From positions 1 through 21,392 of IMG/VR virus record IMGVR_UViG_3300046516_000224: DNA of 21,392 bases. One strand, given 5' to 3'. Shown in pieces: positions 3,898 through 18,509 of this stretch. The position numbers and the translations under genes were made by a program. Position 1 is the first letter of the stretch. Each line of letters opens with the position of its first letter. Below the pieces are notes generated by a model that worked only from the letters and a program-made list of their open reading frames with translations, ran no database searches and had not been told where the DNA came from. The stretch comes from a virus.

Positions 3898-4386
3898 CTA
3901 GGTGTTATACTTTCCATTTCGTTCTTCTACTGTACTACGTGATGTTCTGCGTGTCAACTCTCTGGATACTGTTTTCATGCAGGATTCCAAGTGGTTATAT
4001 ATAGCCTTAATCTGATCAGCAAAAGACTCAGAAAATATGAGAGCATAATCCATCTCTTGAACTTCAGGTTCCAGGGCAACCAGAGCTTTCGTTTCAGAAA
4101 CAGTCTTCGCTTTCTTTTGAACTGTGTACTTATCTGTAACAGCCTGTAGTTTACGGGCAGACATTCTAACATCAATAACAGCAACAGCCACCTGATATCC
4201 GGCATACCCTGTCCAGCTAGTGAACTCACTAAGCAGTTCCATCAATTCTCGGTCAGGAAGGTCTGCTAATCCTGCCGGAAGTTCTGGCTGGCCTTCCGAT
4301 GGTCTCTGAGGTGCTCTCAGTCCCACTTGGTCTAACTTCTGCTGAGGTGTTCCCCAGCCCGATTGTACTGGACTTCTCTGCGCCAT
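3898..4386 (-). CDS. Helical partner of the Cas4-like nuclease, 162 aa, SGWG motif
   Basis: The C-terminal two thirds are long amphipathic helices (from about residue 48), with a Lys/Arg-rich centre and an acidic stretch before a basic tail. The first 45 residues are Pro/Gln-rich and probably disordered. They carry QSGWGTPQ at residues 8-15. This N-terminus lies in a 134-base out-of-frame overlap with the end of the Cas4-like gene. A shorter start exists at ATG 4242, after that gene ends, but it loses the motif. I prefer 4386 because an equivalent motif occurs in the Cas4-like protein and the SSB. No family is recognised. A role beside the nuclease is inferred from position only. Confidence 0.6.
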   Translation of the reverse strand: MAQRSPVQSGWGTPQQKLDQVGLRAPQRPSEGQPELPAGLADLPDRELMELLSEFTSWTGYAGYQVAVAVIDVRMSARKLQAVTDKYTVQKKAKTVSETKALVALEPEVQEMDYALIFSESFADQIKAIYNHLESCMKTVSRELTRRTSRSTVEERNGKYNT

Positions 4387-5284
4387 CGTATTGCTCGCAA
4401 TCTTTACAACTAGAACCAGTAGAACATTCTGGTGGAGACATGGTGTTGTCAAGCGCCCCAACAATGAAATAGGCTTGTGTAAACAAGCTATCGCAGAAAT
4501 TAGGATCATACTTGACTACGAATTCCTTGACTCCCTGGTTGAACTTTGCCTCATAAATGAAGATGATCTGAGTATAGGGAAGTCCCATCAGATCACACAG
4601 TCGTAGATAAAGCTGTCCCTGACGAAGATGGGAAGGGAATGGTTCCTTTATGTCCCTCCAGAGACCCTGAAGGTCAATCTTCTGACCATCTGTATTGGCC
4701 TTGTAGATATCAGGTGCCTCTATTCTAACCGTACCAGCACCCACGGACTTAATCTCGATAAGAGCGTCCAAATGTGGAATAGCACCATCTGCATGACCTG
4801 CGATAAGATACTGTTCTGCCCGCAAAGGAACCTCGGCATATGTATAGCCTACACGGCTCTTGCATGATGGACAGCGCTCATCATAATAGAAATTGTTCTT
4901 GACTGTGTAGTCACACTCCATGCAGTTCCAGTTGCCCCAGAGGACTCCCATAGCTTCCAGTCGGGACTGCCACTTGGTGTGGATCATATGTCCCTCATCA
5001 AAGATGTTGAGGAGCTGGACACCTATATTCTCAGGTGCCTTCAGATAGGGGTTGTCTGCCTCTCTGCAAGCCTTGATACGAAGGTAGGTACTTCTGGGAC
5101 ACCAGCCTGTCTTGGCCATCTCAGAAGGGTGTATGATGTCCTGTCGTCTATTAGAAGGACGGGAATGTGCCTTTATCATATGCTGCTGAATACTTCCAAG
5201 AAGAATAGTATCCTTTGCTGCATTTGCATAGTTGGCCATGCGTCCTGTTAGTTTCGGTCCCCAGCCTGAGGATATTGCTGCCAA
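4253..5284 (-). CDS. Cas4-like PD-(D/E)XK exonuclease with Fe-S cysteines
   Basis: Numbered from the TTG at 5284, the nuclease core contains GHADG (D166), EIK (E177, K179) and a QLYLRLCDL helix corresponding to the QxxxY motif. This is the arrangement of RecB-family/Cas4 nucleases. An early GWCPRSTY cysteine (C62) plus C287-x5-C293-x2-C296 near the end match the four-cysteine Fe-S site of Cas4/AddB. An extra CxxC...CxxC zinc ribbon is inserted before the core (WNCMECDY, ERCPSC). Phage Cas4-like proteins are replication/recombination exonucleases. The start is uncertain: ATG 5338, TTG 5284 (AAAGGA nine bases upstream) and ATG 5239 are all possible. The first two keep an SGWG motif encoded over the whiB end. 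Confidence 0.8.
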   Translation of the reverse strand: MAAISSGWGPKLTGRMANYANAAKDTILLGSIQQHMIKAHSRPSNRRQDIIHPSEMAKTGWCPRSTYLRIKACREADNPYLKAPENIGVQLLNIFDEGHMIHTKWQSRLEAMGVLWGNWNCMECDYTVKNNFYYDERCPSCKSRVGYTYAEVPLRAEQYLIAGHADGAIPHLDALIEIKSVGAGTVRIEAPDIYKANTDGQKIDLQGLWRDIKEPFPSHLRQGQLYLRLCDLMGLPYTQIIFIYEAKFNQGVKEFVVKYDPNFCDSLFTQAYFIVGALDNTMSPPECSTGSSCKDCEQYDGAEKSSTIGLGNTSAEVRPSGTESTSETIGRPARTSGRISRPS

Positions 5285-5586
5285 AGCTTTCGTTCCTTTC
5301 TCAGTTTCGCACGTTCTTCCGGATTCATTCCGCCCCATACTCCATAGCGCTCATTATTCGTCATTGCGAACTCCAAGCAGCTTTCCAGTAAAGGACAGGG
5401 CTTTCCGTCATATGTGCCTAAGCAAATGTTCTTTGCGTCTTCTGTCTCACTATAGTCAGGTTCATCCTCTGAATCCGAATCACTATACCAAGGGTCGTTT
5501 CCTCTTGTTGCAGGAAACGATACACACTTGGCCTGTCTATCAGGATCATCGCTGAACCATGCGGGTGCAACACTACGTAGTTTCAT
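5248..5586 (-). CDS. whiB: WhiB-like Fe-S transcription regulator
   Basis: WhiB proteins bind a 4Fe-4S cluster and partner with the primary sigma factor. They are confined to actinobacteria and their phages. Here the four cysteines are C21, C55, C64 and C70, followed by the diagnostic GVWGGMNPEER turn (82-92) and a basic tail (AKLRKERK). Two features are unusual. The second and third cysteines are eight residues apart instead of two, and a very acidic Asp/Ser/Glu insert (about 35-50) lies between the first and second. The ATG at 5586 is preferred over 5628 because WhiB homology starts there (APAWFSDD). It overlaps the resolvase gene by 14 bases and the nuclease gene by at least 37. Confidence 0.88.
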   Translation of the reverse strand: MKLRSVAPAWFSDDPDRQAKCVSFPATRGNDPWYSDSDSEDEPDYSETEDAKNICLGTYDGKPCPLLESCLEFAMTNNERYGVWGGMNPEERAKLRKERKLWQQYPQAGDRN

Positions 5587-5905
5587 TACCACTAAAGCCA
5601 ACCTTTTCGCGTAGTTCAAGATAGTCATCCTTGGACATGATTACCCAAGAATTACCACTGGTCTTGAACTCTACCATAAAGATCGGAATTCGTCCATCCA
5701 TAAGCGCTTGGTTATAGTTCTTCTCCAGTTCAGCATCCTTTAGTGAGTAGGATTTGGCAGAAGTTATCTTCAATTCAAATAGTTCGTTCCCTGTCCGTAC
5801 ATCGGATTTTCGCAGCCACTGATTCCCGGAACCTGCATTAACTGTTCCATCGAGTTTCTTAGCCAGCTCTTTTTCTTGTCTCTGGCTATCTTTGGTATCA
5901 GCCAT
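5573..5905 (-). CDS. PD-(D/E)XK nuclease, Holliday junction resolvase-like
   Basis: At 110 residues this is a single small nuclease domain. It has a helix with E11/E13, then GSGNQWLRKSDVR with D35, and FELKIT with E44 and K46, followed by a helix and IFMVEFK. That order (E, D, E-x-K) is the archaeal Hjc-like or phage PD-(D/E)XK resolvase pattern. Such enzymes resolve branched DNA before packaging or during recombination. The exact substrate cannot be read from sequence. It lies beside the WhiB gene and the Cas4-like gene, so a recombination role fits. The start at 5905 has GAGAGGAAC upstream. Confidence 0.75.
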   Translation of the reverse strand: MADTKDSQRQEKELAKKLDGTVNAGSGNQWLRKSDVRTGNELFELKITSAKSYSLKDAELEKNYNQALMDGRIPIFMVEFKTSGNSWVIMSKDDYLELREKVGFSGNETT

Positions 5906-7594: not shown

Positions 7595-8035
7595 TCAAGC
7601 CACATGTTTCCACTGAGTGTAGGATATGGCGTGAGCTATGGTGGTATGGCTTACTCCATATAGTGTACCCAATTTCCTATGACTATAATTACCCGAAGCA
7701 TATAAACGTCGTATTTCTACGACAGCATCTTCAGTTAACTTAGCATTAAAACAACTGGAACCTTTAGGTGTCCTATCACGAGAGACCCTATCCATTACAT
7801 TATCTAAATTTGTTCCTACAGAAAGATGTGTAGGTTCACAGCATGGACGAGTGTCACAAGAATGTCTTACATGCAGTCCCTTTGGAATAGGACCCTTGAA
7901 TACAAGATAAGCTACTCTGTGAACCTTTTGTGACTTACCCTCATACCAAATATTTCCATAACCACCTTTATCCAATGATCCTGTCCATATTTGGCAGTCT
8001 CCTCTTTTAACTAGTCTTCTAGTAAGCCTATCCAT
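7595..8035 (-). CDS. HNH homing endonuclease with C-terminal HTH
   Basis: The core HRVAYLVFKGPIPKG, HSCDTRPCCEP and HLSVGTNLDNVMDR is the HNH_3-type fold: two His, zinc-binding Cys, and the N at the end of the motif. The C-terminal 45 residues (KLTEDAVVEIRRLY, YSHRKLGTLYGVSHTTI) form a helix-turn-helix of the kind homing nucleases use to bind target DNA. It overlaps the end of the recA-like gene by eight bases and looks A+T-richer than that gene. It probably targets the recA-like locus of related phages that lack it, which is how free-standing HNH genes usually spread. Confidence 0.85.
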   Translation of the reverse strand: MDRLTRRLVKRGDCQIWTGSLDKGGYGNIWYEGKSQKVHRVAYLVFKGPIPKGLHVRHSCDTRPCCEPTHLSVGTNLDNVMDRVSRDRTPKGSSCFNAKLTEDAVVEIRRLYASGNYSHRKLGTLYGVSHTTIAHAISYTQWKHVA

Positions 8036-9083
8036 TACTCTTTACAGCAGTTTCTAAGGTCAACTTTGAAATTTCTCCCATTAGTATCGGCTTTCCTCGT
8101 AATTCTTCGACTAGAGCATCTCTACCCTGCCACTTGAACTCTTCGTTGTCAAGTGAGGTGTAGTTGAACCACGCACCTGCTCTCCTGATGACCTTGAAGA
8201 CAACAGCCATGGTGATAGTATCACGAAGCATGTCATAGTCACCAGGCTTGAATCCCTTGGCACTGTTCTCAAAGTACATGTCAGCAACAGCAGTCTTCTG
8301 TGGTGCCCCAGCCTTGTTCTTGGTGATCAGGTACTTGACTGTCTGTCCTACCTTGACCTTGCCCAGACCATCAACAGCCTCTTCAATCCAGTCGTCTCTA
8401 CCAATCTTGACACGCTGGTAGAACTGGTAGTTCTTTGCCTTTCCACCAGGCTCCGTAGTAGGGGTTCCATAAGGAGAAAAGCCACCGATCTTATCACGGA
8501 ACTGATTGATGAAGAATCCTACGTAAGGACGGTCATCACTATAGGTATCAGGAATCTTACGGAAGAACTGTCCTACTCGTCTGGCTCCGCCACCAACAGT
8601 AAAGCCCTCCATATCCTTATCCGATTCATCACTTGCAATCAGTGCAGGATATGAATCAAGAACAATGGCATCAAAGACATTCTCACGTCCTGCATCAAGG
8701 ATCTCCTGGAAACAGAGTTCCATATTATTGTGCTCGAATACCTCTACTCTATTGTTGTCAACACCATGAGCTTCTGCCCATTCAGGGTTGTAGGGTTCAG
8801 ATGCTACCCAGAATGCAGAATAGTTCTTGTCTTTAGCCTGATTGACTGCAATGGTGTGCAGAACAGTCGTAGTCTTACTAGCACTGGACTCCCCGACTAT
8901 CTCAATCCATCTGTTAGTAGGCCAACCTCCACCTAATGCAACATCTAGAGACAGAATGCCAGAAGTCTGGCGTGGTGGAACATAGATTTCACTGGCACTG
9001 ATAAGAGGCTTCAAGCCCTTCTTTACAAGAGCCTTGTTCTGCTTTTCCCTGAATAACTTTAACTTCTGTGCCTGGTCTTCCAT
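8028..9083 (-). CDS. RecA/UvsX-like recombinase
   Basis: This ATP-dependent strand-exchange protein shows the RecA core. Walker A is GESSASKTT (residues 64-72), E96 is the probable catalytic glutamate, Walker B is DAIVLDS (D143), and INQFRDKIG at about 192-200 is followed by TTEPGGKAKNYQ, matching the RecA L2/GGxALKFY region. At 351 residues it has normal RecA length. The glycine that usually precedes the Walker A lysine is serine here. A GGGAG site lies five bases before the ATG at 9083. It would work with the SSB, Cas4-like nuclease and resolvase-like protein in phage recombination or recombination-dependent replication. Confidence 0.9.
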   Translation of the reverse strand: MEDQAQKLKLFREKQNKALVKKGLKPLISASEIYVPPRQTSGILSLDVALGGGWPTNRWIEIVGESSASKTTTVLHTIAVNQAKDKNYSAFWVASEPYNPEWAEAHGVDNNRVEVFEHNNMELCFQEILDAGRENVFDAIVLDSYPALIASDESDKDMEGFTVGGGARRVGQFFRKIPDTYSDDRPYVGFFINQFRDKIGGFSPYGTPTTEPGGKAKNYQFYQRVKIGRDDWIEEAVDGLGKVKVGQTVKYLITKNKAGAPQKTAVADMYFENSAKGFKPGDYDMLRDTITMAVVFKVIRRAGAWFNYTSLDNEEFKWQGRDALVEELRGKPILMGEISKLTLETAVKSNG

Positions 9084-9572: not shown

Positions 9573-9877
9573 TAGCGGCATACCACCTTGTCTCTGCGGT
9601 TACGGTCAATCTTCTTTAGTGTCTTACTACTGGGCTTTTCATACCAGTAGTTGTTGAACTCTACCCGACCAGTCGTATTCGACTTTGCCGAGTTGCACCA
9701 GATGTGCGACAGCTGTAGATTTTCCATATCATCACTGCCTCCTCTGGAAACAGGCTTGATATGGTCTACGTTGCAGTCACGGATATCCGCAAATCTGAAA
9801 CAGATCTGACAGATACCTTCATCCCTCAGATACAGCTCATGCAGAACCTGCATTCCCATACCATGATGGCCGGTCAC
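9572..9877 (-). CDS. HNH endonuclease, 101 aa
   Basis: This is a compact HNH nuclease. CQIC and VDHIKPVSRGGSDDMENLQLSH carry the catalytic D-H pair and conserved N, and WCNSAKSN provides the last motif. It belongs to the McrA/common HNH group. The start is GTG at 9877, chosen for the GGAGG site five bases upstream. It lies ten bases after the reductase stop, so a homing-type insertion next to the reductase gene is likely. A basic C-terminal tail (KTLKKIDRNRRDK) could contact DNA. Confidence 0.85.
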   Translation of the reverse strand: MTGHHGMGMQVLHELYLRDEGICQICFRFADIRDCNVDHIKPVSRGGSDDMENLQLSHIWCNSAKSNTTGRVEFNNYWYEKPSSKTLKKIDRNRRDKVVCR

Positions 9878-15550: not shown

Positions 15551-16288
15551 TTAGTTGCTGGCACGCTTCGCAGGCTTGTCAGAATCCTGGAAAGGAACGT
15601 TGGCAAGGAACTGAATAGTAGGAATGAATATGATCTCTTCACCATACACCTCAAGGGCACGCTCAGCAAGATCAGACTCAGTCAGAGGCTGAATTCCGTA
15701 GTCGTCCTCCAGGTCACGAGCCTTAAGAGGAAGGACACGAGTAGCAGGAGCGTCACGATTCGGAAGCTTCTCATGGTAGACGTGGAAGTAGCGGTCATCA
15801 GAATTCAGAGCCCAGTAGTCGCCCTGAGGATTCTCAGTAAGGGACTGGAGAGCAGTGGACACCTCGTTGCCGAATACCCATGCTACAACCTTGTCTGGGT
15901 CCTCAATGAGGTCCACAACGTTCATGACATAGGACTGAGAGCGACGGAGACCCTCAGCACACAGTGGGCAGTCACCCTGAAAGAACTCATCATTCAGGCA
16001 GGTATAGTACTTACCCTTGGGACCCGCAGACTTGATGTAGTGGCGACCATACTTCACAGCAGGAACCTCATCAAGGATCTTTACAATACGCTTACCCTTA
16101 CCGCCGAGAACAAGGGACTCAAACTTTGCAGTCTCACGTCGCTCAGGAACAGGCGCACCCCAACCAGCACTAACGGCTGTGACATTACGGGACATCCTAC
16201 GGGAAGGAACAGGGTCGACACTGTCAGCATCGTTGTAGTGATTGTCATCAGTAGTGTCAGAAACAGGGACACGGGAAATCTTTGCCAT
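15551..16288 (-). CDS. Probable ssDNA-binding protein, 245 aa
   Basis: A disordered N-terminus (about 1-50) carries SAGWGAP at 40-46. A beta-rich OB-like part follows (GGKGKRIVKILDEVPAVKYGRHYIK), with a cysteine group CLNDEFFQGDCPLC (about 97-110) like the zinc insertion of gp32-type proteins, then a VVDLIEDP strand-turn. It ends in a short tail with acidic then basic residues. This matches the phage gp32-like ssDNA-binding proteins seen beside family A polymerases. The ATG at 16288 has AGGAG five bases upstream. It would coat single-stranded DNA during replication and recombination. The family call rests on pattern and context. Confidence 0.65.
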   Translation of the reverse strand: MAKISRVPVSDTTDDNHYNDADSVDPVPSRRMSRNVTAVSAGWGAPVPERRETAKFESLVLGGKGKRIVKILDEVPAVKYGRHYIKSAGPKGKYYTCLNDEFFQGDCPLCAEGLRRSQSYVMNVVDLIEDPDKVVAWVFGNEVSTALQSLTENPQGDYWALNSDDRYFHVYHEKLPNRDAPATRVLPLKARDLEDDYGIQPLTESDLAERALEVYGEEIIFIPTIQFLANVPFQDSDKPAKRASN

Positions 16289-17537: not shown

Positions 17538-17907
17538 TCTTACTCCCGAATATAGAATCGAAACTTCCAACTTCCTTGCGTACTGCTCCTGACATCCACT
17601 TCTCCAGAGGCATACCCTTGATGTAATCTGCTGGGCTTGGAAGCCATCCCAGATCCTCAATGATATGACGCTCTGCAATCTCCCTCACAGGAACCTGAAT
17701 AGTCTTGTGAGACTTCTCAATGGTCAGTGTCTTGCCGAAGATTGTCTGGCAAAGAAATACACCAAGAGTGTGGTGGTAGACAGAACGATGACGTGAATCA
17801 CCTATTACCTGCTTACTAGAATCTATGAAGGATTCAATCTCTATGTAATCCTCCCAAGTGCCTCCCCATTTATGGGCTGCTGATTTGGCATGATAAAAAC
17901 TATTGAT
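17530..17907 (-). CDS. DUF6915-like protein lacking a canonical start codon, 125 aa
   Basis: This frame contains no ATG, GTG or TTG near its 5' end, yet it is open for 125 codons and its protein is clearly conserved-looking: YHAKSAAHKWGGTWEDY, DSRHRSVYHHTLGVFL, IFG, VPVREIAERHIIEDLG and LPSPADY, in the order I know from DUF6915-type proteins. Those proteins usually start a few residues before the first HAKS. Here that place holds ATC (17907-17905), exactly six bases after GGAGG. Either ATC is used, or the ATG has been lost. An in-frame stop lies at 17940, so no upstream start exists. The HNH stop overlaps the first codons. The end overlaps the next gene by eight bases. Function unknown; the many His may bind metal. 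Confidence 0.7.
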   Translation of the reverse strand: MNSFYHAKSAAHKWGGTWEDYIEIESFIDSSKQVIGDSRHRSVYHHTLGVFLCQTIFGKTLTIEKSHKTIQVPVREIAERHIIEDLGWLPSPADYIKGMPLEKWMSGAVRKEVGSFDSIFGSKNV

Positions 17908-18307
17908 TATGCACCTCCATGTATATAGCGGCTGCTCTCAACAACTCGGGATCATGATTAAATAATCCTAGACCTCTATTACATTTCCCACATATAAACT
18001 CTCGCACTTTACCAGTTTGGTCATTATGGTCAAGATGAAGTTCTTCCGCTGAGAAGCATAATGGACAGAAGCTAGAACGTGCCTTTAACTCGTCATATTC
18101 TTCAAGAGTCAATCCGTATACTTGCTTGGCACGATACCGCATTGCTGATCTATTTGAACTGTGTTGCTTTGACATACATTCTTTACACCTACCACAGAGA
18201 CCACTATTCCCATTCTTATGCTTCCAGAAGTTTTCCACTGGTTTGAAGTCTGCGCAACCTGTACACCAATGCATCCCTTCTGGCGCGGTAGGTCTTCTAT
18301 AGGGCAC
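17900..18307 (-). CDS. HNH endonuclease, recombination endonuclease VII type
   Basis: The protein opens PEGMHWCTGCADFKPVENF with CGRCKECMSK, a zinc ribbon, and then has a helix (YGLTLEEYDEL). The endonuclease VII core is CPLC, LHLDHNDQTGKVREFICGKCNRGLGLFN and a final helix. The catalytic H-D pair reads LDHND. The start is taken as GTG at 18307 because the conserved PEGM segment lies just before the ATG at 18274; both are possible and neither has a strong ribosome site. It overlaps the preceding gene by 11 bases and ends over the beginning of the DUF6915-like gene, so its insertion may have removed that gene's start. Confidence 0.8.
   Translation of the reverse strand: MPYRRPTAPEGMHWCTGCADFKPVENFWKHKNGNSGLCGRCKECMSKQHSSNRSAMRYRAKQVYGLTLEEYDELKARSSFCPLCFSAEELHLDHNDQTGKVREFICGKCNRGLGLFNHDPELLRAAAIYMEVHNQ
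17914..17918 (-). promoter_or_regulatory. GGAGG ribosome site before the ATC codon
   Basis: A full GGAGGT site lies inside the last codons of the HNH gene, six bases before the ATC at 17907, where the start of the DUF6915-like frame is expected. No ATG, GTG or TTG in any suitable frame follows at normal distance: the next ATG, at 17891, is in another frame that ends after 16 codons. This supports the view that the ATC is at the true start position. Confidence 0.6.
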
Positions 18308-18509
18308 TAGATGTGCACAGTTCCTGCTCAGCCTTGTAGAACTTGTGCTCCTTCTTGAAGTACTTGTATAGAGCCTCACTGAATTCATAGTCACAACGAG
18401 CCTCGTCAATAGCCACAACAAACCTGACAAGAGCATCCTCATCAAGCTCCATAGACAGACAATCAGCCAGTTCCTCAAGGTCAATAACAGAAGTAACACG
18501 GAGTTCCAT
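18297..18509 (-). CDS. Hypothetical acidic helical protein, 70 aa
   Basis: The chain is acidic and helical (IDLEELADCLSMELDEDALVRFV-type, then YEFSEALYKYFKKEHKF) with a short Cys/Ser end. The ATG at 18509 shares a base with the TAA of the previous gene (TAATG). No family is recognised. It belongs to the run of small acidic proteins between 18.3 and 19.1 kb. Confidence 0.65.
   Translation of the reverse strand: MELRVTSVIDLEELADCLSMELDEDALVRFVVAIDEARCDYEFSEALYKYFKKEHKFYKAEQELCTSSAL

Follow-up and report, generated by a model that had tools for sequence, protein, structure and literature searches.

Probable dual coding where the end of a Cas4-type gene overlaps the start of a gene with a predicted UvsY-like fold in BRock-like Streptomyces phages

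Introduction

In the stretch of phage DNA analysed here (the window, an IMG/VR record of 21,392 bases whose closest kind is the BRock-like phage, represented by Streptomyces phage BRock), the end of a Cas4-type exonuclease gene and the beginning of the following gene, called gene 2 below, occupy the same DNA in different frames. This raises the question of whether both frames are translated and which of the two is the older. Loss of the stop codon of the upstream gene is given as the commoner route to unidirectional overlaps, and long overlaps of this kind are said to concentrate in one frame class, both according to PMC3887535. The genome announcement of BRock does not mention the Cas4/gene 2 overlap (PMC7453282), and a search of the open-licence literature (Cas4 overlapping genes, BRock, overprinting, SSB/primase motifs) yielded no title on this overlap or on the motif that it carries.

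Materials and methods

Twenty sequences were compared, comprising the window, 14 IMG/VR contigs (L023-L034, L036 and L037) and five reference phages (L002-L006). Rows L035 (BRock again) and L017, L018 and L020 (same contigs) were dropped. L005 equals L004 in this stretch and was therefore excluded from the statistics, leaving 19 sequences. Synonymous differences were compared by Fisher test, omitting Met, Trp, Leu, Arg and Ser codons. In the chance test the Cas4 protein was kept fixed, its synonymous codons were redrawn, and redraws in which gene 2 was open with a start were counted. A sister group of 72 loci (L099-L170; 62 distinct over the first 300 nt) was reached via the distant contig L019; it consists of environmental phages with a Cas4 and gene 2 pair.

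Results and discussion

On the minus strand of the window, the order of transcription is Holliday junction resolvase, WhiB-like gene, Cas4, gene 2 and ThyX (Table 1). The Cas4 gene matched the family profiles phrog_2506 (exonuclease, E 1.2e-44) and phrog_1990 (Cas4-domain, E 4.9e-4), while a Pfam scan gave no family and NCBIfam one weak match, far below the cut-off. With Cas4 or gene 2 as query, tblastn returned the same six records from five phages at 41-56% identity; Streptomyces phage BRock (gp66/gp67), pSt2308, GiJojo, LuckySocke and Alone3 show the same neighbours (WhiB-like and ThyX) and the same overlap. In the window the overlap holds the final 44 sense codons of Cas4 with its stop and the opening 44 codons of gene 2, Cas4 position 2 being codon position 1 of gene 2. 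Ser, Thr and Gly account for 21 of the last 44 residues of Cas4, and Pro and Gln for 14 of the first 44 residues of gene 2. A preliminary description had reported an out-of-frame overlap of this length with an SGWG motif, and its coordinates and frames proved correct.

Table 1. Positions of the genes and motifs discussed in the text
Feature	Position	Strand	Remarks
Holliday junction resolvase	5905-5573	minus	
WhiB-like gene	5628-5248	minus	
Cas4-type exonuclease	4253..5284	minus	probable start TTG 5284; ATG 5338 also open
Gene 2, 162 aa, predicted UvsY-like fold	3898..4386	minus	long form from ATG 4386
ThyX	3569-2844	minus	
UvsX-like recombinase	8028..9083	minus	phrog_97 E 6e-49; Pfam RecA E 4.5e-32
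gp32-like SSB	15551..16288	minus	phrog_14578 E 4.8e-5; GWG codons 16157-16165
Cas4/gene 2 out-of-frame overlap, 134 nt	4253..4386	minus	
SGWG codons, gene 2 residues 9-12	4351..4362	minus	
Internal ATG (Met49) of gene 2	4240..4242	minus	equivalent of GenBank start
GWG codons of Cas4	5258..5266	minus	

Considered in the window alone, the overlap is unremarkable, as 26% of the redraws left gene 2 open and with a start codon (P ~0.26), and a single genome proves nothing. Over the 19 sequences the mean was 19%, and the rough product of the chance probabilities over eight representatives, chosen by eye and not from a tree, was 4e-7. When the gene 2 protein was kept fixed, the Cas4 frame was open to its stop by chance in a mean of 4.5% per sequence. 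The Cas4/gene 2 overlap was found in 20/20 sequences with a length of 110-137 nt, every length being 2 mod 3, which fits known 3'-extension overlaps as described in PMC3887535. The long start of gene 2 was at the same place in all of them (ATG in 19, GTG in one). A start above 4386 was rejected; the frame of the window is open to ATG 4509, but among the 20 sequences this open stretch covers 14-43 codons, and its residues are dissimilar (17 loci).

In nine close pairs, chosen by eye and not from a tree (L037 left out), synonymous differences of the Cas4 frame amounted to 13/141 (9%) in the overlap vs 558/1621 (34%) in the Cas4 body (p=3e-11), and in the same nine pairs those of the gene 2 frame to 62/184 in the overlap vs 251/663 in the remainder of the gene (p=0.34). 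The preliminary description had proposed conservation of synonymous sites in both frames as a check; suppression was found in the Cas4 frame but not in the gene 2 frame, so that the constraint is lopsided and gene 2 the dominant partner. Differences at gene 2 positions 1, 2 and 3 were.10,.11 and.36 in the overlap, and.13,.07 and.42 in the rest of gene 2. The mean pairwise identity of gene 2 was.60 in the overlap and.61 elsewhere, that of Cas4 was.42 in the tail and.67 in the body, and within the overlap the identity of gene 2 exceeded that of Cas4 in 169/171 pairs. These substitution patterns place the stronger selection on gene 2, with loose constraint on the Cas4 tail. The comparison thus shows that the gene 2 protein is conserved from ATG 4386 onwards and that Cas4 remains open across it in 20/20 sequences. 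An RNA or DNA signal, rather than coding, is a most improbable cause of this conservation, as the differences cluster at gene 2 third positions and the lengths of the overlap shift by multiples of three.

Gene 2 of the sister group begins with a sequence like MSALEKF.GWGL.F.KPS..QV.LP.DIT, and W followed by G or N was found within the first 16 residues in 68/72 loci. In the annotated phage collection, sister gene 2 matched only Streptomyces phages, one Bacteroides phage (E 4e-3) and one other phage (E 0.4). Cas4 lies upstream in 71/72 loci, and the overlap never exceeds 14 nt, being one base (TAATG) in 47/71, 4 or 14 bases in 3/71 and absent in 21/71. None of the 72 loci has Met at the place of Met49; 67 have Gly, two Ala and two Ser, and in the remaining one ('LGELM'), which the pattern missed, the residue read by eye is Gly. 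The Cas4-type frame across sister gene 2 is open for at least 35 codons in 2/72 loci, with a median of 6.

These findings bear on the reading in which gene 2 exists in its short form only, as in GenBank, and the frame above it is open by chance. Such a reading agrees with the annotation of all five reference phages and with the ordinary appearance of the open frame in the window, but it fails to account for the conserved long start and N-terminus, the codon-position pattern and the protein identities; in addition, the sister group has a similar N-terminus with neither the long overlap nor the internal Met, and the Cas4-type frame rarely stays open across its gene 2. It is therefore considered very improbable. 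The match to a ribosome-binding site at ATG 4386 was weak and about background (-2.2 to -7.2; background mean -3.3, sd 2.7). From the comparisons, dual coding in which gene 2 begins at its long start is highly likely, and the longer frame is very probably translated, as the preliminary description had argued; the start and N-terminus conserved in 20/20 sequences, the codon-position pattern and the non-overlapping sister group all favour that claim.

Because the same N-terminus occurs without the long overlap in the sister group, gene 2 is probably the older gene, with the Cas4 tail overprinted on it; we regard the greater age of the gene 2 frame as very likely. Most simply, the overlap would be derived, having arisen in the BRock-like clade through loss of the Cas4 stop. 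In the ancestor, Cas4 would have terminated at or near the start of gene 2, and once its stop was lost the C-terminus would have been extended over gene 2 by about 36-45 loosely constrained residues. In 7/71 sister loci gene 2 starts 1 or 4 bases after Cas4, which by arithmetic is the frame where stop loss alone yields the present overlap; the weak homologue in the Bacteroides phage begins 3 bases behind the gene that precedes it. Codon usage, applied as a test of frame age, gave 11/19 and did not tell the frames apart. Although a long unidirectional overlap is in itself of a known kind, the present one differs from known 3'-extension overlaps in that a non-overlapping sister group gives the direction and the N-terminal motif of the older gene lies inside. 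The locus would thus be a case in which the tail of one protein came to overprint an older gene, and the direction of the event is unusually well defined.

In GenBank, gene 2 of all five reference phages starts 46 codons late, at the equivalent of ATG 4242, and the overlap and the motif are thereby removed from the annotation. Homologues starting consistently at or after this ATG had been named in the preliminary description as the observation that would speak against the long frame. This is literally true of GenBank (5/5), but the annotated starts are contradicted by the start and N-terminus in 20/20 sequences, the codon-position pattern, the N-terminus of the sister group and the lack of an internal Met there. 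For Cas4, a start codon was found 3-7 codons before a GWG motif in 18/20 sequences (TTG 5284 in the window), the exceptions being L028 and L029 with start codons 17 and 24 codons before GWG. Cas4 is annotated from a start before GWG in pSt2308 and GiJojo, and from a later start that cuts off GWG in LuckySocke, Alone3 and BRock (3/5). Accordingly, five reference genomes would receive a corrected start for this probable recombination mediator, and three of them one for Cas4. In the window, Cas4 also overlaps the preceding WhiB-like gene on the minus strand, by 37 nt from TTG 5284 (5248-5284) or by 91 nt from ATG 5338, and its GWG codons sit inside this overlap. The genes form a chain of overlaps, in which the resolvase and WhiB-like genes share 56 nt (5573-5628, minus strand) if the latter starts at 5628.

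It could also be supposed that gene 2 is made in two forms, a long one that starts at ATG 4386 and bears the GW tail, and a short one produced when ribosomes terminate on Cas4 and reinitiate at ATG 4242. The internal Met, seen in 20/20 sequences of this clade and in 0/72 sister loci, would suit such an arrangement, as would the Cas4 stop, which lies 4-19 nt before the internal ATG in 20/20 (10 nt in 12). However, the ribosome-binding match before the internal ATG is mostly poorer than background (+0.7 to -4.0 vs mean -3.3), the model of the protein places Met49 within the first helix, and the position of the Cas4 stop may be dictated by an Asp-rich segment of gene 2, as judged from a reading of the codons. 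Two forms are hence thought unlikely. A stronger competitor concerns the Cas4 tail, which might be translated yet useless, its frame being held open because a Cas4 stop early in gene 2 would disturb gene 2 initiation. This would agree with a tail identity of just.42 and with gene 2 third positions (Cas4 first positions) that vary nearly as freely as elsewhere (.36 vs.42). The Cas4 frame is open far beyond chance (mean 4.5%; 2/72 sisters), which also fits a useful tail, and the chances of a useless one are put at somewhat below even.

With respect to the product of gene 2, the model (17 sequences) had a mean pLDDT of 83, with a disordered stretch (residues 1-21), a confident stretch, a long helix (45-90) and two further helices (96-104 and 107-161). 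The preliminary description had taken both products to be disordered in the overlap. For gene 2 this held for residues 1-21, with pLDDT <50, but not for residues 21-50, where block means of 70 (21-30), 89 (31-40) and 92 (41-50) were obtained. A fold search of the PDB with the model returned T4 UvsY at ranks 1-17 (target TM 0.58-0.72, E 0.03-0.23). UvsY was also at the top of a second fold comparison with Z 10.4, where unrelated helical proteins reached up to Z 10.3. A link in sequence to UvsY was not obtained by hhalign of the gene 2 alignment against T4 UvsY (E 0.7 over 2 columns), and the Pfam scan gave a sub-threshold match only and no UvsY family. Weak unnamed families only were found in PHROGs (16 members), one weak match far below the cut-off in NCBIfam, and no match at E 1 among profiles of solved structures. 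The LKARLDY (KARL) motif, named for UvsY in PMC3016280 and present in T4 UvsY, was absent from gene 2 when inspected by eye.

The window further encodes DNA polymerase A as well as a UvsX-like recombinase and an SSB-like protein, a context that fits a UvsY role. The SSB remained below the cut-off for Pfam gp32 (18.4 vs 26.8 bits), its model retrieved only unrelated proteins in a fold search, and neither it nor one sister gene 2 had a match in NCBIfam. Gene 2 is like T4 UvsY in being accompanied by UvsX-like and gp32-like proteins and may resemble it in its predicted fold. It differs from it in an additional tail at the N-terminus, which holds the GW motif, in adjoining Cas4 and in being without sequence support. 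Judged from model and context, gene 2 may well work like UvsY, but it is not filed here as a member of the UvsY family. As a mediator, it would load the UvsX-like recombinase of the phage onto SSB-coated ssDNA.

The GW motif of the gene 2 tail was found in 20/20 sequences, as GWG in 13 (exact SGWG in four) and as SGWL in seven, and all 17 rows of the gene 2 alignment carry GW. The preliminary description had used SGWG as an argument for translation; that exact form is limited to 4/20 sequences, and motifs of this type also occur outside gene 2. GWG is present near the N-terminus of Cas4 in 20/20 sequences. In the SSB, Gly42, Trp43 and Gly44 are invariant over 19 rows (18 distinct) within an otherwise variable tail; residues 1-54 were disordered in the model of the window protein, in which a docked tail was not seen. 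Among the primases (BRock, NC_048650 49236-50219, and L084-L098), GW occurs in the first 40 residues in 13/16, and Trp in a GW or RW context in 15/16, two having RWG. The single primase locus of the sister group has no such motif, and no GWG was found in the gene 2 homologue of the Bacteroides phage. The local forms are VSSGWG in the SSB, ISSGWG in Cas4, VQSGWG in gene 2 and VSSGWN or ITKGWG in the primase.

When conserved presence over expectation was compared for all 400 dipeptides in the first 70 residues of 117 orthologue groups, GW ranked first, and other Trp dipeptides also ranked high. GW was carried by 9/117 groups; the Holliday junction resolvase was one of these, and some others are, judging from their genomic position, not involved in DNA processing. 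Among the 2156 ORFs of five genomes, a six-residue pattern had 26 hits vs a mean of 6.8 and a maximum of 13 in 50 shuffles; 18 of the 26 hits were in the four families from which the pattern had been drawn, and the count is therefore partly circular. The statistics of the GW motif are suggestive only.

It is tentatively proposed that gene 2, Cas4, SSB and primase share a GW-type docking peptide, which the disordered tail of gene 2 would present. With similar reserve, a tag of approximately [VIF]-[STQ]-[SK]-G-W-[GNSA] could bring the four proteins together at a single hub, or set them in competition for it, the SSB core being the simplest choice. The SSB core is the first candidate for a common partner because T4 gp32 uses its N-terminal tail to dock onto the core next to it, through a peptide with the LAST motif according to PMC12893549. 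LAST is Lys-Arg-Lys-Ser-Thr as described there, whereas the motif of the present phages is GWG and its docking only proposed. For T4 UvsY, PMC3016280 places the contact with gp32 at the C-terminal domain of the latter and states that the displacing action of UvsY does not depend on it; both points count against an N-terminal docking model. No paper on a GWG motif in phage turned up in the open-licence literature. If the proposal is true, two of the tags, those of gene 2 and Cas4, lie inside out-of-frame overlaps with the preceding gene, which is why annotation missed them, and the motif would be a candidate docking peptide, open to testing and common to several proteins of phage replication and recombination, beyond the T4 and E. 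coli models. Considered as a whole, dual coding, overprinting, a UvsY-like gene 2 and a GW docking peptide form the best explanation of the locus, and a likely one.

The window also contains recombination endonuclease VII domains (Pfam PF02945) in two genes on the minus strand, at 2287-2847 (E 2.7e-17) and 17903-18385 (E 2.5e-14), and two HNH genes at 7598-8035 and 9575-9877.
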